Source: Neisseria polysaccharea ATCC 43768 (GTDB lineage: Bacteria; Pseudomonadota; Gammaproteobacteria; Burkholderiales; Neisseriaceae). Taken from it: a stretch of DNA of 38,534 nt. The notes under the pieces were generated by a model that made no database searches, was not told the origin of the DNA, and worked only from the letters and a program-made list of their open reading frames with translations. A program made the position numbers and the translations under genes. This document shows, one piece after another, positions 28,461 through 38,534 of the stretch. The number at the start of each line of letters is the position of its first letter. The stretch's first letter is position 1. The stretch lies in contig ADBE01000129.1 of assembly GCA_000176735.1 (NCBI GenBank), positions 1-38,534 of the forward strand, read 5' to 3'.

Positions 28461-30125
<1,665 letters not shown>

Positions 30126-30171
30126 TAAAGCGTTACTTGATGATCAAAATGCCGTCTGAAAAACGGCACCC

Positions 30172-30501
30172 CCCTGCCACGTCTTTAATCGAAGCCGGTG
30201 TGGACGTCGATTTTCCGTTGGTAATGCGCGCCGAAGCAGGTTTAGGCAGCGTTGTCCAAGCCGCAGGATGCTGCAACCGCGAAGGCAAAAGGCTACCTGA
30301 AAACAGCTTTGTCTAGGTATTTACGCCTGAAGAACAATGTAAAGTCCTGCCTGAACTTGCCACCCAAGCCGCCGTTATGCGTTTGACCGTCGACAGCTTT
30401 TCAGACGACCTCATTCCACAGATTTTCGATTTTTCAACACTTCGAGCCATTTATATGGCTTGTTCGTTAAATTTTGCGCGTTTTAAATTTGGAGAATTGA
30501 C
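30172..30501 (+). pseudogene. Remnant of a second, older type I-C cas3
   Basis: Starting just after the DUS following pyrG, the frame reads [20 protein letters not shown] and [14 protein letters not shown], the end of the Cas3 helicase domain (motifs V and VI). The intact cas3 downstream has LIEAGVDLDFPCVYRAMAG and IAQAAGRCNREGK. Motif VI has Cys in place of Arg, and an in-frame TAG (near 30314) follows, then VFTPEEQCKVLPELATQAAV, still Cas3-like. The 5' three quarters of the gene is missing. It contains an exact Eikenella-type DUS (30290-30301) and an exact mucosa-type DUS (30400-30411, minus). The sequence differs clearly from the intact copy, so it is not a simple duplication. Confidence 0.7.
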
Positions 30502-33012
30502 GTGAATTTCGACTATATAGCCCACGCCCGCCAAGACGCATCAGGAAATTGGCACCCCCACCCCCTGCAAGACCACCTGCAAAAAGTCGCTCAACTCGCC
30601 AAACGTTTTGCAGGGCGTTACGGGGCGTTGTTTGCCGAATATGCGGGGCTTTTGCACGATTTGGGGAAATTTCAGAAAGCTTTTCAGAAATATATCCGTA
30701 ATGCATCCGGCTTTGAAAAAGAAAATGCCCATTTGGAAGATGTCGAATCTACCAAGTTGCGCAAAATTCCGCATTCCACTGCCGGTGCAAAATATGCAGT
30801 AGAGCAAGAGCACCTTAATCTGTTTTTTGGGCATTTGTTGGCGTATTTGATTGCCGGGCATCATGCAGGGCTGGCAGATTGGTATGATAAAGGCAGCCTG
30901 AAACGCCGTCTGCAACAGGCGGATGACGAGTTGACGGCATCTTTGTCAGGTTTGGCGGAAAGTGGTTTGTCTGAAGATTTTTTCCCGTTATCAGAAGATG
31001 ATCTGAAGCGGGATTTTTTTGGATTTTGGAAAGACAGTGCAAAGCTGGAAGAGCTGCATATTTGGCTGCGTTTTCTCTTTTCCTGCTTGGTGGATGCCGA
31101 TTTTTTAGATACCGAAGCCTTTATGAACGGCTACGCCGATACAGATGCCGTGCAGGCTGCCGGATTGCGCCCGAAATTTCCCAGTTTGGATGAGTTGCAC
31201 CGGAGATATGAGCAATATATGGCGCAACTTTTGGAAAAAACAGATAAAAATTCAACTTTAAATCAAGAACGCCATATCATTTTGCAGCAATGTTTTTCCG
31301 CCGCCGAAACCGACCGCACTTTGTTTTCTTTAACCGTGCCAACCGGCGGCGGCAAAACTTTGGCGAGCTTGGGGTTCGCTTTGAAGCACGCACTGAAATT
31401 CGGCAAAAAACGTATTATCTACGCGATTCCCTTCACCAGTATTATTGAACAGAACGCCGATGTTTTCCGCAAAGCATTGGGCGATGATGTGGTTTTGGAG
31501 CACCACAGCAATTTGGAAGTGGCCGATAACAAAGAAACCGCCAAAACCCGCCTTGCCACGGAAAATTGGGATGCACCGCTGATTGTTACCACCAACGTGC
31601 AACTGTTTGAAAGCCTGTTTGCGGCGAAAACCAGCCGCTGCCGCAAGATTCACAATATTGCCGACAGCGTGGTGATTTTGGATGAAGCCCAGCAGCTTCC
31701 GCGCGATTTCCAAAAGCCGATTACCGACATGATGCGGGTGCTGGCGCGTGATTACGGCGTTACTTTTGTGCTGTGCACGGCAACCCAACCGGAGCTTGGC
31801 AAAAATATCGACGCATTCGGTCGCACTATTTTGGAAGGCCTGCCGGATGTGCGCGAAATTGTGGCAGACAAAATTGCCTTATCGGAAAAACTGCGCCGCG
31901 TCCGTATCAAAATGCCGCCGCCAAATGACGAAACACAAAGCTGGCAGGAAATTGCCGATGAAATCGCCGCGCGTCCATGTGTTTTGGCAGTAGTCAATAC
32001 GCGAAAACACGCCCAAAAACTCTTTGCCGCCCTGCCTTCTGACGGCATCAAACTGCATTTGTCCGCCAATATGTGCGCCACACACCGAAGCGAAGTGATT
32101 GCGTTGGTTCGCCGATATTTGGCACTGTATCGCGCAGGCAGCCTGCACAAGCCCTTGTGGCTGGTCAGCACGCAGTTGATTGAAGCCGGCGTGGATTTGG
32201 ATTTCCCTTGCGTTTATCGGGCGATGGCAGGACTGGACAGCATTGCCCAAGCGGCGGGGCGGTGCAACCGTGAAGGTAAACTGCCACAGTTGGGTGAAGT
32301 GGTCGTGTTTCGTGCCGAAGAAGGCGCGCCCAGCGGCAGCCTGAAACAGGGGCAGGACATTACCGAAGAAATGCTGAAAGCAGAGCTGCTCGGCGACCCG
32401 CTTTCCCCGTCGGCATTTGCCGAATATTTCCGCCGGTTCAACGGCAAAGGCGATGTGGACAAACACAACATTACAAGACTCTTGACGGCAGAATCATCCA
32501 ATGAAAATCCGCTGGCAATCAAATTCCGCACCGCTGCCGAACGCTTCCGCCTGATTGATAACCAAGGCGTGGCACTCATTGTGCCGTTTATCCCGTTGGC
32601 TCATTGGGAAAAAGACGGCAGTCCGCAAATTATCAAAGCAAACGAGTTGGACGATTTTTTCAGACGACACTTGGACGGCGTGGAAGTTTCAGAATGGCAG
32701 GATGTTTTGGACAAACAACGCTTTCCTCAGCCAACCGACAACTCCTTCGGGCAAACTGACAGTCCACCTCTGCCCGAGCCGTTTGAAAGTTGGTTCAAAT
32801 TTTTAGAAAGCGATCCACTCAAACACAAATGGGTTTACCGCAAGCTGCAACGCTACACGATAACGGTGTACGAACACGAACTGAAAAAGCTGCCTGTACA
32901 TGCGGTTTTTTCTAGGGCGGGATTGCTGGTGTTGGATAAGGGCTATTACAAAGCCGTGCTTGGCGCGGATTTTGACGATACGGCTTGGCTACCTGAAAAT
33001 TCAGTTTTATGA
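30502..33012 (+). CDS. cas3: CRISPR-associated helicase-nuclease Cas3, type I-C
   Basis: The effector that unwinds and cuts DNA marked by Cascade. The 836-residue protein has an N-terminal HD nuclease domain (His25, then HD at 52-53 in GLLHDLGK, HS in KIPHSTAGA) and an SF2 helicase: Walker A PTGGGKT with Lys285, DEAQ at 394-397, LCTATQP, STQLIEAGVDLDF and QAAGRCNREG. All the catalytic motifs I know are intact. The start is GTG at 30502 after GGAG (30491-30494). It contains an exact Kingella-type DUS, AGGCAGCCTGAA (30891-30902). It is the first gene of the operon; cas5 starts 23 bases after. Confidence 0.95.
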   Translation: MNFDYIAHARQDASGNWHPHPLQDHLQKVAQLAKRFAGRYGALFAEYAGLLHDLGKFQKAFQKYIRNASGFEKENAHLEDVESTKLRKIPHSTAGAKYAVEQEHLNLFFGHLLAYLIAGHHAGLADWYDKGSLKRRLQQADDELTASLSGLAESGLSEDFFPLSEDDLKRDFFGFWKDSAKLEELHIWLRFLFSCLVDADFLDTEAFMNGYADTDAVQAAGLRPKFPSLDELHRRYEQYMAQLLEKTDKNSTLNQERHIILQQCFSAAETDRTLFSLTVPTGGGKTLASLGFALKHALKFGKKRIIYAIPFTSIIEQNADVFRKALGDDVVLEHHSNLEVADNKETAKTRLATENWDAPLIVTTNVQLFESLFAAKTSRCRKIHNIADSVVILDEAQQLPRDFQKPITDMMRVLARDYGVTFVLCTATQPELGKNIDAFGRTILEGLPDVREIVADKIALSEKLRRVRIKMPPPNDETQSWQEIADEIAARPCVLAVVNTRKHAQKLFAALPSDGIKLHLSANMCATHRSEVIALVRRYLALYRAGSLHKPLWLVSTQLIEAGVDLDFPCVYRAMAGLDSIAQAAGRCNREGKLPQLGEVVVFRAEEGAPSGSLKQGQDITEEMLKAELLGDPLSPSAFAEYFRRFNGKGDVDKHNITRLLTAESSNENPLAIKFRTAAERFRLIDNQGVALIVPFIPLAHWEKDGSPQIIKANELDDFFRRHLDGVEVSEWQDVLDKQRFPQPTDNSFGQTDSPPLPEPFESWFKFLESDPLKHKWVYRKLQRYTITVYEHELKKLPVHAVFSRAGLLVLDKGYYKAVLGADFDDTAWLPENSVL

Positions 33013-33035
33013 AATAAAAGCAATAAGGAGATGAT

Positions 33036-33679
33036 ATGAGTTTTATCCTAGAAATCAGCGGCGATTTGGCATGTTTCACCAGGCCCGAGCTTAAGGTGGA
33101 GAGGGTAAGCTACCCCGTTATCACACCGTCTGCTGCCAGAAACATCCTAATGGCGATATTGTGGAAGCCGGCAATCCGCTGGCGAGTCTTGAAGATAGAA
33201 ATCCTAAAACCGATTCAGTGGACGAACATCCGCCGTAACGAAGTGGGAACCAAAATGAGTGAACGCAGCACCTCGCTCTATATTGAAGACAACCGCCAGC
33301 AGCGTGCATCCATGATGCTGAAAGACGTTGCCTACCGCATTCACGCCGATTTTGACATGACAAGCGAAGCAGGAGAAAGCGACAACTACGTCAAGTTTGC
33401 CGAAATGTTTAAACGGCGGGCAAAAAAGGGCAATATTTCCACCAGCCTTATTTGGGTTGCCGCGAGTTTCCCTGCCATTTCAGGCTACTTGAAAAGTCTG
33501 AAGACGGTTTGCCACGCGAAGACATTACCCAAGATTTCGGTTTTATGTTGTACGACATGGATTTCAGCAAATCCGATCCGCGCGATTCCAATAATGCTGA
33601 GCCAATGTTTTACCAATGCAAAGCGATAAACGGCGTAATTACCGTGCCCCCAGCCAATAGCGAGGAGGTGAAACGATGA
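33036..33679 (+). CDS. cas5c: Cas5c, frame broken by one missing base
   Basis: In type I-C, Cas5c cuts the crRNA precursor and caps the 5' handle in Cascade. The frame from ATG 33036 is good up to MFKRRAKKG, then fails. One more A in the run 33422-33427 gives KGQYFHQPYLGCREFPCHF and one 214-residue protein ending EEVKR. The stop overlaps the cas8c ATG (ATGA). The N-terminal FTRPELKVERVSYPVITPSAAR and NIRRNEVGTKM patterns are typical. Residue 42 is Leu in ILMAILWKPAIRW, where I recall Tyr or His in relatives (the Tyr is catalytic in B. halodurans Cas5d); this needs an alignment. Confidence 0.88.
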
Positions 33680-35421
33680 TTTTGCACGCACTCACCCAAT
33701 ACTACCAACGTAAAGCCGAAAGCGATGGCGGTGTTGCCCCGGAAGGGTTTGAAAACAAAGAAATCCCGTTCATTATTGTTGTAGACAAACAGGGCAAATT
33801 TATTCAGCTTGAAGATACCCGCGAGTTGAAAAATAAGAAAAAAGTTGCCCGCACTTTTTTAGTGCCGAAAGGTTTGGGCAGGAGCGGTTCAAAATCCTAC
33901 GAAGTAAGCAATTTATTGTGGGATCACTACGGTTATGTACTTGCTTATGCCGGAGAAAAAGGACAGGAGCAGGCGGACAAACAGCATGCCAGCTTTACCG
34001 CCAAAGTAAACGAATTGAAACAGGCGCTGCCCGATGATACAGGTGTTACTGCGGTTGCTGCCTTTTTGTCTTCTGCGGAAGAAAAAAGCAAAGTCATGCA
34101 GGCTGCAAATTGGGCGGAGTGTGCCAAAGTCAAAGGCTGTAATCTCAGCTTCCGCCTGGTGGATGAAGCGGTAGATTTGGTTTGCCAGTCAAGGGGGGTG
34201 TGGGAATATGTGAGTCAAGCAAATCAAACGCAATCCGATAATGTCCAAAAAGGCATTTGCTTGGTAACGGGCAAGCCTGCGCCGATTGCGCGGCTGCATA
34301 ACGCCGTGAAAGGCGTGAATGCCAAGCCCGCCCCGTTTGCATCGGTAAATCTGTCGGCTTTTGAATCATACGGCAAAGAGCAGGGCTTTATCTTTCCCGT
34401 GGGCGAGCAAGCCATGTTCGAATATACCACCGCCTTGAACACCCTGCTTGCTAGCAAAAACCGATTCCGTATCGGCGATGTAACGGCCGTATGTTGGAGT
34501 GCGAAACGGACTCTGTTGGAAGAAAGTCTTGCTTCGCTGATTAACGGCGGCGGCAAAGACAATCCCGATGAGCATATCGATGCCGTTAAAACCCTTTATA
34601 AAAGCCTGTACAACGGTCAATATCAAAAACCTGACGGCAAAGAAAAATTCTACCTTTTAGGTTTATCGCCCAATTCCGCGCGCATTGTCGTCCGCTTTTG
34701 GCACGAAACCACCGTTGCCGCCTTATCCGAAAGCATTGCGGCGTGGTATGACGATTTGCAGATGGTGCGCGGCGAAAACTCGCCATACCCCGAATATATG
34801 CCGTTGCCGCGCCTGTTGGGCAATTTGGTGTTGGACGGAAAAATGGAAAACCTGCCATCTGACCTGATTGCCCAAATAACCGATGCCGCACTCAACAACC
34901 GCGTTTTACCCGTCAGTCTGCTGCAGGCTGCTTTACGGCGCAACAAGGCGGAACAGAAAATTACCTATGGCAGGGCAAGTTTGCTTAAAGCCTATATCAA
35001 TCGCGCAATCCGCGCGGGTCGTCTGAAAAACATGAAGGAGCTAACTATGAGCTTAGATAGAAACCGTCAAGACATCGGCTACGTGCTGGGGCGGCTGTTT
35101 GCCGTGCTGGAAAAAACACAGGATGAAGCCAATCCCGGCTTAAATGCTACTATTGCCGACCGCTATTTCGGTTCGGCAAGCAGCACGCCGATTGCCGTAT
35201 TCGGTACTTTGATTCGTTTGTCCAAACATCACCTGAGTAAACTGAATACGGAAAAATACAGGGGAAAACGAATTTTTTTAGAAAAACTTTTTCAAGAAAT
35301 TATCGGAAAAATAGATAATTTTCCCAATCATTTGGATATTAACCATCAAGTTTTATTTGGGATCGGTTATTACCACCAAAAACAAGATTTTTTCCAATCT
35401 AACTCAACTGAAACAAATTAA
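33676..35421 (+). CDS. cas8c: Cas8c (Csd1), large subunit of type I-C Cascade
   Basis: The large subunit, which recognises the PAM and recruits Cas3. The 581-residue protein begins MILHALTQYYQRKAE and has the Csd1 pattern: FLVPKGLGRSGSKSYEVSNLLWDHYGYVLAYA near 55-90, CLVTGKPAPIARLHNAVKGV near 195-215, and FYLLGLSPNSARIVVRFW in the second half. It starts with ATG overlapping the cas5 stop after GGAGGTG. Its last 124 codons double as cas11 from an internal start (see 35047). Near 35016 is a near-match to the mucosa-type DUS. Confidence 0.93.
   Translation: MILHALTQYYQRKAESDGGVAPEGFENKEIPFIIVVDKQGKFIQLEDTRELKNKKKVARTFLVPKGLGRSGSKSYEVSNLLWDHYGYVLAYAGEKGQEQADKQHASFTAKVNELKQALPDDTGVTAVAAFLSSAEEKSKVMQAANWAECAKVKGCNLSFRLVDEAVDLVCQSRGVWEYVSQANQTQSDNVQKGICLVTGKPAPIARLHNAVKGVNAKPAPFASVNLSAFESYGKEQGFIFPVGEQAMFEYTTALNTLLASKNRFRIGDVTAVCWSAKRTLLEESLASLINGGGKDNPDEHIDAVKTLYKSLYNGQYQKPDGKEKFYLLGLSPNSARIVVRFWHETTVAALSESIAAWYDDLQMVRGENSPYPEYMPLPRLLGNLVLDGKMENLPSDLIAQITDAALNNRVLPVSLLQAALRRNKAEQKITYGRASLLKAYINRAIRAGRLKNMKELTMSLDRNRQDIGYVLGRLFAVLEKTQDEANPGLNATIADRYFGSASSTPIAVFGTLIRLSKHHLSKLNTEKYRGKRIFLEKLFQEIIGKIDNFPNHLDINHQVLFGIGYYHQKQDFFQSNSTETN
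35047..35421 (+). CDS. cas11c: Cas11c small subunit, made from an internal start in cas8c
   Basis: Type I-C systems are known to make Cas11 by internal initiation within cas8c, and Cascade needs it. Here an in-frame ATG at 35047 (codon 458) is preceded by AAGGAG at 35035-35040, six bases upstream: a perfect ribosome site inside a coding region. The product is 124 residues, MSLDRNRQDIGYVLGRLFAV onwards, all-helical, ending in QSNSTETN, matching the expected size. This start is the only one of its quality in the second half of cas8c. Confidence 0.82.
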   Translation: MSLDRNRQDIGYVLGRLFAVLEKTQDEANPGLNATIADRYFGSASSTPIAVFGTLIRLSKHHLSKLNTEKYRGKRIFLEKLFQEIIGKIDNFPNHLDINHQVLFGIGYYHQKQDFFQSNSTETN

Positions 35422-35436
35422 ACAGGAGCAAATGCT

Positions 35437-36288
35437 ATGACTATTGAAAAACGCTACGACTTTGTCTTTTTATTTGACGTGCAAGACGGCAACCCCAACG
35501 GCGATCCCGACGCAGGCAACCTGCCGCGTATCGACCCGCAAACAGGCGAAGGTTTGGTAACCGATGTTTGTCTGAAACGCAAAGTCCGCAACTTTATCCA
35601 AATGACTCAAAATGACGAACATCACGATATCTTTATCCGAGAAAAAGGCATTTTGAACAACCTGATTGACGAAGCCCACGAGCAAGAAAACGTAAAAGGC
35701 AAAGAAAAAGGCGAGAAAACCGAAGCCGCCCGCCAATACATGTGCAGCCGTTATTACGACATCCGCACATTCGGCGCAGTGATGACTACCGGTAAAAACG
35801 CCGGGCAAGTGCGCGGTCCCGTGCAACTGACTTTTTCTCGCTCTATCGATCCCATCATGACCTTGGAACACAGCATTACCCGCATGGCGGTTACCAACGA
35901 AAAAGATGCCAGCGAAACCGGCGACAACCGCACCATGGGGCGCAAATTTACCGTCCCTTACGGCCTATACCGCTGCCACGGCTTCATTTCTGCTCATTTT
36001 GCCAAACAAACAGGCTTTTCCGAAAACGATTTAGAACTGTTTTGGCAGGCACTCGTCAATATGTTCGATCACGACCATTCCGCCGCACGCGGACAAATGA
36101 ACGCACGCGGGCTTTATGTGTTTGAACACAGCAATAATCTGGGTGACGCACCTGCCGACAGCCTGTTCAAACGCATTCAGGTAGCCAAAAAAGACGGCGT
36201 GGAAGTGGCAAGGAATTTTGACGACTACCTTGTCAGCGTGGACAATCAAAATCTTGGCGAAACCAAGCTGTTGCGTAAATTAGGCTGA
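35437..36288 (+). CDS. cas7c: Cas7c (Csd2), Cascade backbone
   Basis: The repeated subunit that wraps the crRNA in type I-C Cascade. The 283-residue protein begins with the family hallmark [23 protein letters not shown] (split here for description), where the strand and loop bind RNA, then [24 protein letters not shown]. Later blocks are [29 protein letters not shown] and [17 protein letters not shown]-like [22 protein letters not shown] precedes the ATG. It lies 15 bases after cas8c and 2 bases before cas4. Confidence 0.95.
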
Positions 36289-36290
36289 AA

Positions 36291-36941
36291 ATGACTGCAC
36301 TTTTAACCGAAACCCAAAGGGAAAATCAGGATACGCGTCTGATTCCCCTTTCCGCCCTGCAACACTATGCTTTCTGCCCGCGTCAATGCGCGTTAATCCA
36401 CAACGAACAGGTGTGGGCGGAGAACTATCTGACCGCGCAAGGCAAGGCGTTGCATGAACGGGTGGATTCGGGCGAGCCGGAAACGCGCAAGGGCGTGCGC
36501 TTTGAGCGGACGGTACACGTTTCGGCAGAAAAACCGGGCATCAGCGGCGTGTTGGATTTGGTGGAAGTGGATACGAAAACAGGCCGTCTGAAACCCGTGG
36601 AATACAAACGCGGCAAGCCAAAACCCGAGCCGATGGACGAAATCCAGCTTTGCGCCCAAGGTTTGTGTTTGGAAGAAATGACGGGGCAAACCGTTTCAGA
36701 GGGCGCGCTGTGGTATATGCAAACCCGCCACCGCGTTCCCATCACGTTTTCAGACGACCTGCGCGCCCAAACACTCGCTACCATCGCCGCTGTGCGTGAA
36801 CTCCTGAACAGCGGCCAAACCCCGCCGCCCAACTACGGCAAACGCTGCAAAGCCTGCTCGCTGATGGAGATTTGCCAGCCGGAATTGTTGGGAAAACGGG
36901 ATAGGAGTGTGGGGTATGTGGAAGCGTTGTTTATTGTGTAA
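36291..36941 (+). CDS. cas4: Cas4 nuclease, last gene of an operon without cas1-cas2
   Basis: A RecB-like nuclease that trims and orients new spacers with Cas1-Cas2. The 216-residue protein has the iron-sulphur cysteines Cys29 (FCPRQC), Cys186, Cys189 and Cys195 (CKACSLMEIC) and the nuclease motifs GVLDLVEVD and PVEYKRGKPKP, so it looks intact. In standard I-C operons cas1 and cas2 follow; here the stop is 2 bases from a shared terminator and rpoD. It contains an AG-DUS (36581-36592) and an exact mucosa-type DUS (36749-36760, minus). Confidence 0.93.
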   Translation: MTALLTETQRENQDTRLIPLSALQHYAFCPRQCALIHNEQVWAENYLTAQGKALHERVDSGEPETRKGVRFERTVHVSAEKPGISGVLDLVEVDTKTGRLKPVEYKRGKPKPEPMDEIQLCAQGLCLEEMTGQTVSEGALWYMQTRHRVPITFSDDLRAQTLATIAAVRELLNSGQTPPPNYGKRCKACSLMEICQPELLGKRDRSVGYVEALFIV

Positions 36942-36942
36942 G

Positions 36943-36978
36943 AAAAAACCGCAGGTATTTTGAACCTGCGGTTTTTTT
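36943..36978. terminator. Bidirectional terminator between cas4 and rpoD
   Basis: AACCGCAGGT pairs ACCTGCGGTT around ATTTTGA, with an A run on the left and a T run on the right, so it can stop transcripts from both sides. cas4 ends at 36941 and rpoD at 36982. Confidence 0.9.
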
Positions 36979-36981
36979 GGT

Positions 36982-38534
36982 TTACAACTTGCTGTCTTCA
37001 CTGTCTAAGAAGCTTCTCAAGCGGTCGCTGCGGGTCGGGTGGCGCAACTTGCGGAGTGCTTTTGCCTCAATTTGGCGGATGCGTTCGCGGGTTACGTCAA
37101 ACTGTCTGCCGACTTCTTCCAGCGTGTGGTCGGTATTCATATCGATACCGAAGCGCATACGTAAGACTTTGGCTTCACGAGGTGTCAGGCTTTCGAGTAT
37201 TTCTTTGGTTACTTCGTGCAGGCTGGTGTACATTGCCGCATCAGCCGGCGCAATATTGTTGGCATCCTCGATAAAGTCGCCCAAGTGCGAATCGTCGTCG
37301 TCGCCTATAGGTGTTTCCATGGAAATCGGTTCTTTGGCGATTTTCATGATTTTACGGATTTTGTCCTCAGGCATCTGCATCAGTTCGGCAAGTTTGGCGG
37401 AATCGGGTTCTTCGCCGGTTTCTTGAAGGTGTTGGCGCGAGATGCGGTTCATCTTGTTGATGGTTTCAATCATATGTACCGGAATGCGGATGGTACGCGC
37501 CTGATCGGCAATCGAGCGGGTGATTGCCTGGCGGATCCACCAGGTTGCGTAGGTGGAGAATTTGTAGCCCCGGCGGTATTCGAACTTATCGACCGCCTTC
37601 ATCAGTCCGATGTTGCCTTCCTGAATCAAATCAAGGAATTGTAAGCCACGGTTGGTGTATTTTTTGGCAATGGAAATCACGAGACGCAAGTTTGCCTGAA
37701 TCATTTCCTGCTTGGCGGCTGCGGTTTCTTTTTCGCTCGACACCATATTTTTGTTGATTTCTTTCAACTCTTCGATGGAAATGCGGGTTTCTTTTTCCAT
37801 ATCTGCCAACTCGGTTTGTTTTTCGAGAATGGCGTGGCGGAAGCGGTCGAGTGCGTCGCTCCAGACCCTGCCTTTGGCGATTTCTTCTTCAATCCATTGC
37901 AGATTGGTGATTTCGGGCAGGAAGTTTTGGATGAAGTAGTCGCGCTCCATATGGACGCGGTCGAGGCAGATGTCGCGGATTTCGCGTTCGAGTTTGCGGA
38001 TGTTTTCTACTTTTCCGCGCAGGCTGCTGCTGAGGCTGTCAATTTGGCGGGTGGCGAAGCGGACTTCCAAAAGTTTGTTGGCGATGGCATCGCGGTAGGC
38101 GAGATAGTCTTTGTGCCGGCTGTGGTGTTTTTCCAAACGGCCGATCATTTTTTTGTAGTCTTTTTCGATTTGGGCAAAGTGGCCGATGACTTTTTGTTTC
38201 AATTCGGCGAGATTGGCTGCCGAGATTTCATCCGCATCTTCTTCCGACTCTTCGTCGTCTTCGTTTTCATCCGAATTGTCGTTGGAAGGTTTCTCGGGCA
38301 CTGTGGTTTCCAAGTGCCCCAAGCCCAATTCGTTGAGCAATACTTCATTCGGGTCGATAATGGCTTCTACGACTTCGTCGACGCGGATTTCGTCTTTGCG
38401 GATTTTTTTCGATGAGTTCTAAGATTTCCGCAATGGATCCTGGGCAGGCGGAGATGGCCTGACCATATTTTTCAGGGCGTTTTCGTTTTTTTGGCGATGA
38501 TGATTTCGTCTTCGCGGGTCAGCAGGTCGACCTG
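36982..38534 (-). CDS. rpoD: RNA polymerase sigma-70 factor, 5' end cut, with three indels near the window edge
   Basis: The housekeeping sigma factor. The clean frame (452 residues from 38340) holds the non-conserved acidic region, region 2 ([44 protein letters not shown]), region 3, and region 4 with the helix-turn-helix [23 protein letters not shown]. It ends DSEDSKL. Further upstream the expected protein continues ([35 protein letters not shown]) but needs one base removed from the T run at 38403-38409 and one added near 38461 and near 38485. These lie within 135 bases of the end, so poor contig-end sequence is the likely cause. Confidence 0.93.

Follow-up and report, generated by a model that had tools for sequence, protein, structure and literature searches.

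A patchwork type I-C CRISPR-Cas locus in decay between the pyrG and rpoD genes of Neisseria polysaccharea, and the uptake sequences along it

Genes and uptake sequences between pyrG and rpoD

The window analysed here is the whole 38,534-nucleotide stretch of contig ADBE01000129.1 of Neisseria polysaccharea ATCC 43768, and its subject is the interval between the core genes pyrG and rpoD, which, judged from its sequence, is a decayed and patchwork type I-C CRISPR-Cas (clustered regularly interspaced short palindromic repeats and CRISPR-associated) locus. From pyrG to rpoD, the interval holds a 0.25-kb cas3 remnant, a leader, cas3, a frame-broken cas5, cas8c, cas7 and cas4; the I-C gene set (cas3, cas5c, cas8c, cas7, cas4) is present, cas5 in part only. 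On the left, pyrG (28491..30125, plus strand; CTP synthase, NCBIfam equivalog, 860 bits) lies on the same side as in the relative G039; on the right, rpoD (36982..38340, minus strand; RpoD equivalog, 693 bits) is partial in the contig.

The effector genes cas3, cas8c and cas7 belong to a type that we call B, type A being the resident type. With a GTG start, cas3 (30502..33012, plus strand) encodes 836 amino acids matching the Cas3 core and HD models. It is followed by cas5 (33036..33676, plus strand), which is broken across two frames: the Cas5c model matches its first part only, and the Cas5 protein of G007, a Neisseria genome, aligns in two frames. Copies in G007, Aggregatibacter kilianii and Necropsobacter are intact. 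Because Cas5c is the subunit that processes CRISPR RNA, the break suggests that interference is dead at this locus, unless it is an assembly error. The gap between cas3 and cas5 is about 0.2 kb longer in G007 and Necropsobacter than in the window and in A. kilianii (window 33013-33035 compared with L109 9427-9642). Downstream on the same strand lie cas8c (33676..35421; 581 amino acids; Csd1 equivalog, 525 bits), whose 3′ part is the equivalent of Cas11 from about 35047 onward (matches to the Cas8 and Cas11 chains in the Protein Data Bank, PDB), cas7 (35437..36288; 283 amino acids; Csd2 model, 384 bits) and cas4 (36291..36941; 216 amino acids; cas4 equivalog, 141 bits).

The same effector type is found in the type I-C system of Neisseria lactamica (PMC10865793, PMC11417383; PDB 8G9T, 8G9U, 8ZNS), and the window's proteins match the N. 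lactamica ones over their full or nearly full length (Cas3 1786, Cas8 1149 and Cas7 631 bits). Unlike that system, the window has a broken cas5, its cas1, cas2 and repeat array elsewhere, a foreign cas3 remnant upstream and a different end of Cas8/Cas11.

DNA uptake sequences (DUS) of several dialects lie along the locus. The initial annotation had listed five exact non-AT sequences and four one-mismatch forms, and all of these are present. The exact ones are an eikDUS (Eikenella type) at 30290..30301 and a kingDUS (Kingella type) at 30891..30902, both on the plus strand, two mucDUS (mucosa type) on the minus strand, starting at 30400 and at 36749 (36749..36760), and an AG-DUS at 36581..36592 on the plus strand. 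A further exact dialect site missing from that list, king3DUS (34922..34933, minus strand), is common to G007, A. kilianii and Necropsobacter, as is the mucDUS at 36749; at the position equivalent to the AG-DUS, G007 and A. kilianii carry mucDUS. The one-mismatch forms at 32334, 32986, 33482 and 35016 were verified in alignment rows, the last being a mucDUS (35016..35027, plus strand) that has its exact form in Necropsobacter.

The genome uses AT-DUS (n=1705 in 2,030,958 bases); the window holds 31 copies, none within 30161-36945. Genome-wide, the pattern AGGYNNYCTGAA occurs 378 times against 8 in the reversed-pattern control, with 93 muc (control 0), 11 king (control 2) and 7 eik (control 0) sites. 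The initial annotation had proposed comparing dialect counts within 30150-36945 with genome-wide rates. In this comparison other dialects are enriched there: 5 AGGYNNYCTGAA sites were observed versus 1.26 expected (P=0.0096), and after 30160 no AT-DUS was observed versus 5.7 expected (P=0.0034), both for a stretch picked post hoc. Within that limit, the cas stretch has the two features of a dialect island, depletion of its own DUS and enrichment of others. In this it resembles the ancillary-dialect islands described in the available part of PMC7371117, where scarcity of the genome's own DUS and an excess of other dialects mark imports; it differs from what is described there in being a module swap with DUS at its seams and not a conjugative element. 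Larger clusters of non-AT dialects in the same genome, at C9:1673-8019 and C28:19756-27221, are candidate further imports.

The coding dialect sites, as a set, are beyond chance. When cas3, cas8, cas7 and cas4 were subjected to 1000 synonymous codon shuffles, the four observed exact sites (king, king3, AG and muc) compared with a mean of 0.08 and were reached in 0/1000. Taken singly, king was reached in 43/1000, AG in 12/1000, muc in 11/1000 and king3 in 3/1000. The kingDUS on its own may therefore be chance, and probably is.

Two effector types and the marks of two families

The type-B effectors are rare within the family. At a threshold of 1e-40, Cas8c matches were found in 18 of 83 family genomes including the window's own; G007 stood at 95% identity and the other 16 at 31-41%. 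In the genome collection, the closest Cas7 proteins among the best 80 of 178 relatives kept, a selection that may leave out near records, were from Necropsobacter (96%), Glaesserella (89%), Moraxella (87%), A. kilianii (85%) and Pelistega (83%), the rest reaching at most 63%. At the DNA level, the window is 92-93% identical to G007 (88-94% gene by gene over the cas3-cas5-cas8-cas7 cassette), which is a mucDUS genome with 2487 copies, and 87.7% identical over 6510 bases, as far as cas4, to A. kilianii, a gammaproteobacterium of the Pasteurellaceae, the family of Necropsobacter too. G007 is the nearest relative for cas3, cas5, cas8 and cas7; for cas4 it is A. kilianii (90.2% versus 88.5% for G007). 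In 150-base steps along the operon, identity drops locally in A. kilianii or Necropsobacter.

Type-A effectors are far more distant from the window's (Cas8 31-36%, Cas7 53-59% identity), whereas in the rows from Neisseria, Pasteurellaceae and Moraxella Cas4 (70-96%) and Cas1 (80-92%) remain much alike whichever effector type accompanies them. A complete type-A effector set occupies the same pyrG-rpoD site in G039, whose order is pyrG, cas3 to cas4, a cas1 fragment, a partial second cas4 and rpoD, and whose flanks are 94-96% identical to those of the window.

Gene trees place these parts differently. In the Cas8 tree, the window groups with G007 (100/100), then with Aggregatibacter (99/98) and Necropsobacter (100/100), separately from the remaining 15 Neisseria rows; A. 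kilianii, Necropsobacter, Glaesserella, Moraxella and Pelistega branch outside the pair of window and G007. In the Cas4 tree, A. kilianii and Necropsobacter fall inside a clade with Neisseria (97/90), and in the Cas1 tree A. kilianii does so (99/98) and Necropsobacter does not. Fragmentary N. gonorrhoeae rows were left out of the Cas8, Cas7 and Cas1 trees, as were Cas1 rows of at most 250 amino acids. With Cas8 grouping differently from Cas4 and Cas1, and with the remnant of another cas3 and a duplicate-derived cas4 end fused on, the mosaic history proposed in the initial annotation is supported.

Segments within genes also vary. The Cas11 region of cas8 (35200-35349) is 99% identical to G007 and 56-60% identical to Necropsobacter and A. 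kilianii; this last part of Cas8 is also unlike N. lactamica and reads as a replaced segment. In A. kilianii, the middle of cas7 (L012; window 35650-35949) is divergent, at 64-70% compared with 88-96% in most neighbouring steps, as if replaced.

Uptake signals of each family occur in the other's copies. Of the 10 mucDUS in the A. kilianii genome and the 7 in that of Necropsobacter, 2 exact copies lie in the type-B operon in each case, a number that codon shuffling reached in neither (0/1000); no mucDUS was found in the Glaesserella, Moraxella and Pelistega genomes. Conversely, the Pasteurellaceae-type uptake signal sequence (USS), a 10-mer, does not exceed background in Neisseria genomes (4-9 copies each versus 5-11 in reversed-pattern controls) but is concentrated in the I-C loci: the share of these copies lying inside the locus is 3/4 in G039, 3/9 in G019, 3/9 in G024, 2/7 in G007 and 1/7 in the window's genome. 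For the three type-A loci, two USS in the five tested genes of each were reached in 0/1000 shuffles; single copies are weak (window 15/1000, G007 30/1000). The window's copy lies in cas3 (31313..31322, minus strand), at the same position in G007, A. kilianii and Necropsobacter.

Because the Pasteurellaceae copies carry mucDUS and the Neisseria copies carry USS, I-C modules have, on this sequence record, most likely moved both ways between Neisseria and Pasteurellaceae. The simplest reading would be that the I-C modules in Neisseria are of Pasteurellaceae ancestry and that DUS-bearing cas4 and cas1 were returned.

Patches of mucDUS, some of them inverted pairs, occur at C1:1103208-1107395 (G083; L147) and C2:200569-205162 (L148) in A. 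kilianii and at C11:62205-69883 (L149) in Necropsobacter. Among the patches outside cas operons, the one at C1:1103208-1107395 alone was shown to be Neisseria-like. Compared with G007, G019 and G024, L148 had no long match (0.58 kb at 73-75%, outside the mucDUS patch) and neither had L149 (about 50 bases around a DUS pair).

Joints at uptake sequences

Two joints on the pyrG side of the locus coincide, one of them probably, with DUS. At the second of these (joint 2; 30400..30412, minus strand), the sequence to the left is the interior of a type-A cas3, preserved as a remnant (30161..30399, plus strand; 84-89% DNA identity to G039, G024 and G019), and the sequence to the right is the leader of G007 and G019, here the apparent leader of the incoming operon (30413..30501, plus strand; 96.7% identical to G007 over 30412-30501 and about 55-60% to Pasteurellaceae). 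The two parents share TTCAGACGACCTC, which is mucDUS plus one more base, and diverge on either side; these 13 bp are the longest match between the type-A cas3 genes of G019, G024 and G039 and the leaders. Within the remnant lies the eikDUS, which is identical in the mucDUS Neisseria genome G019, replaced by AG-DUS in Neisseria G024 and a variant in G039.

The seam between pyrG flank and remnant (joint 1) probably lies at the AT-DUS of 30149..30160 (plus strand), where pyrG-flank homology stops and cas3-interior homology starts: homology to G039 ends at 30161 and that to G024 begins at 30151, with 11 bp in common. A third joint was found in A. kilianii, where a stretch of Neisseria-like DNA passes, at a mucDUS, from one place to another that is 2.4 kb away in G007, both places bearing mucDUS in the same direction.

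We scanned 26 sequences for joints (the window, 24 Neisseria-family loci and one A. kilianii locus) and grouped the 76 resulting rows by eye into 11 events. Four lay at DUS: the two joints described for the window, the one in A. kilianii and, in the gonococcus, an insertion of 180 bp at the DUS of 36749 that has DUS on one side only. Against a background of 2.0% per 30-base segment, 4/11 events gives P=4.8e-5, and 3/10 after exclusion of the A. kilianii joint gives P=8.8e-4, both computed post hoc.

Several observations weigh against a history built on DUS-to-DUS joining. The other 7/11 events lie away from DUS, and the scan of 26 sequences yielded no DUS case beyond those already identified. 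Beyond joint 1 the match stays imperfect as far as 30175, and G024 has a further internal DUS with 13 bp in common with the pyrG flank, compared with 11 bp at the one used, so that joint 1 is probable rather than sure; the A. kilianii joint came from a site selected because it has mucDUS. Within cas4, informative sites alternate instead of marking a single crossover point. G007, at just 92% identity to the window cassette, would not be the donor itself. Finally, 6.8-kb stretches on C7 (7), C9 (10) and C28 (9), among the 100 of 378 places listed, are as rich in other dialects as the cas region or richer, which discards the idea that its cluster is unique; the cas locus is therefore one island among several, and such islands characterise this genome generally.

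Adaptation module, proposed history and alternatives

By a simple repeat scan, no array was found in the window, and cas1-cas2 are likewise absent from the locus, where cas4 is followed by rpoD. The single Cas1 match in the genome is Cas1c on contig C28; cas2 lies with it, as does an array whose 12 I-C-type repeats reach to about 20 bases from the contig end, and the module follows era by about 1.7 kb. These genes and the array (~147075-149410; L125 17076-19411) stand without effector genes. With Cas1c, cas2 and the array on C28 and the effectors between pyrG and rpoD, the two modules are therefore apart in the present assembly. The end of the window's cas4 and its terminator (36923..36980) follow the second, partial cas4 that stands beside rpoD in G039 and N. 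gonorrhoeae. Segments of the gene are about 84-94% identical to the full-length copies of relatives. By its alternating informative sites, cas4 appears to be a mosaic of full-length copy and duplicate. The match of its end to the rpoD-adjacent duplicate can explain the loss of cas1, cas2 and the array from the locus.

A fusion of cas1 (5′ part) with a second cas4 (3′ part) lies beside rpoD in both G039 (L112 15036-15865) and N. gonorrhoeae (L108 7925-8590); it is an old shared rearrangement with no DUS at its joint. In the plasmid collection, cas4 matched two N. gonorrhoeae records, each the size of a chromosome. One of them, NZ_CP119140.1 (L108; 2.17 Mb, entered as a plasmid), contains fragments of cas8 and cas7 and, adjacent to rpoD, a full-length cas4 frame and a second cas4 with an insertion.

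Taken as a whole, we consider it fairly probable that a resident type-A locus was replaced by a type-B cassette, with seams at DUS and with recombination in cas4. The transforming DNA would have come from a mucDUS or AG-DUS Neisseria; at one end it would have paired through cas4, which matches well, and at the other it would have been joined via the 13-bp DUS. Such a swap would be a one-sided, homology-anchored illegitimate event, and one transformation event would give the main structure. The old cas3 may later have lost its 5′ part through a DUS-to-DUS deletion, and cas1, cas2 and the array may have been lost through recombination between cas4 and its duplicate. The muc and AG sites would then be marks of DUS-bearing hosts, and the eik site an inherited variant of a site in type-A cas3. 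In N. meningitidis, an AT-DUS species, transformation relative to AT-DUS was 0.90 for AG-DUS, 0.36 for mucDUS and 0.0002 for kingDUS, with none for eikDUS (PMC3630211); transformation of an AT-DUS species by mucDUS and AG-DUS DNA, and hardly by king or eik DNA, fits the proposed donors.

Alternatively, the swap may have taken place in a different species and been acquired complete. The chimeric locus would then have been received from another AT-DUS species, for example one like N. lactamica, through homologous recombination in pyrG and rpoD, its DUS joints being older and made elsewhere; this is compatible with the replacement described above and differs from it on where and when. It draws on the type-B system of N. 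lactamica (species as given in the available part of PMC11417383) and on the flank identity to G039. Against it, no genome with the same joints was found, G007 alone has this Cas8c type among the other 82 family genomes, and the G007 stretch examined has no pyrG or rpoD match. We regard it as a possibility of some weight, if not the expected one. It is rather unlikely that the DUS at the joints are coincidental or simply survived as conserved sites while recombination took place elsewhere: DUS are indeed frequent (0.94 per kb, counting two 10-mers in the loci scanned) and conserved, and most joint events lie elsewhere, but for two of the joints, joint 2 and the one in A. kilianii, the parental flanks are about 89-97% identical up to the DUS from opposite sides.

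A DUS-targeting integrase of a mobile element, as proposed for ICENmu, which uses a 21-bp motif enclosing an AG-mucDUS for attachment (PMC7371117), is a very improbable maker of the joints: the open reading frames identified between pyrG and rpoD are cas genes, although no search aimed at integrase families was made, and the shared stretches are 11-13 bp rather than 21, with joint 1 of the AT/AG dialect. Least probable of all is direct transformation from Kingella and Eikenella, which the exact kingDUS and eikDUS had suggested, since the eik site is shared with G019 and variable among Neisseria, the king site is compatible with chance in the codons and has one base different in G007, 2 of 12 genera have Cas8c matches (those corresponding to Kingella and Eikenella were not assigned) with the window's type in none but Neisseria, and DNA of these dialects hardly transforms N. 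meningitidis. Of the initial proposal of natural transformation between genera, transformation itself is plausible and exchange would extend even beyond the family, but Kingella and Eikenella as its sources are not supported.

Homology-facilitated illegitimate recombination, in Acinetobacter and pneumococcus, combines long homology at one end with microhomology at the other; here the microhomology would be the uptake sequence itself. Exchange between Haemophilus and Neisseria marked by uptake sequences is likewise a cross-family traffic among transformable bacteria of airway and mouth; in the present case it involves CRISPR effector and adaptation modules and the uptake signals of both families. 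In the parts of the literature available, foreign dialects have been used to find imports and a mobile element with mucDUS in its attachment site is described (PMC7371117), I-C arrays occur in commensal Neisseria with none in 630 N. gonorrhoeae genomes (PMC9238386), and repeated units such as insertion sequences, DUS and Correia elements are named as recombination targets (PMC3454330). Given the last statement, the idea of recombination at DUS is not new in its general form. In the open-access literature, no paper stood out on DUS-to-DUS joints or on Neisseria-Aggregatibacter I-C exchange, and within that scope the DUS-to-DUS joints and the two-way watermarks of uptake signals are apparently new.

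It has long been asked why thousands of uptake sequences persist, a good many of them within genes. We suggest, tentatively and as somewhat less likely than not, that these abundant 12-bp repeats serve as crossover points as well as entry tags, letting one-sided homologous events swap entire functional modules, in this case a CRISPR effector cassette onto a different adaptation module, even along a chain connecting two families that bear one another's uptake signals in their copies. If they do act as such short crossover sites, uptake sequences would shape which chimeras transformation can make. In this respect, the locus would illustrate how Neisseria and Pasteurellaceae exchange CRISPR effector modules while having an adaptation module in common, the uptake signals of the two families recording this traffic legibly.

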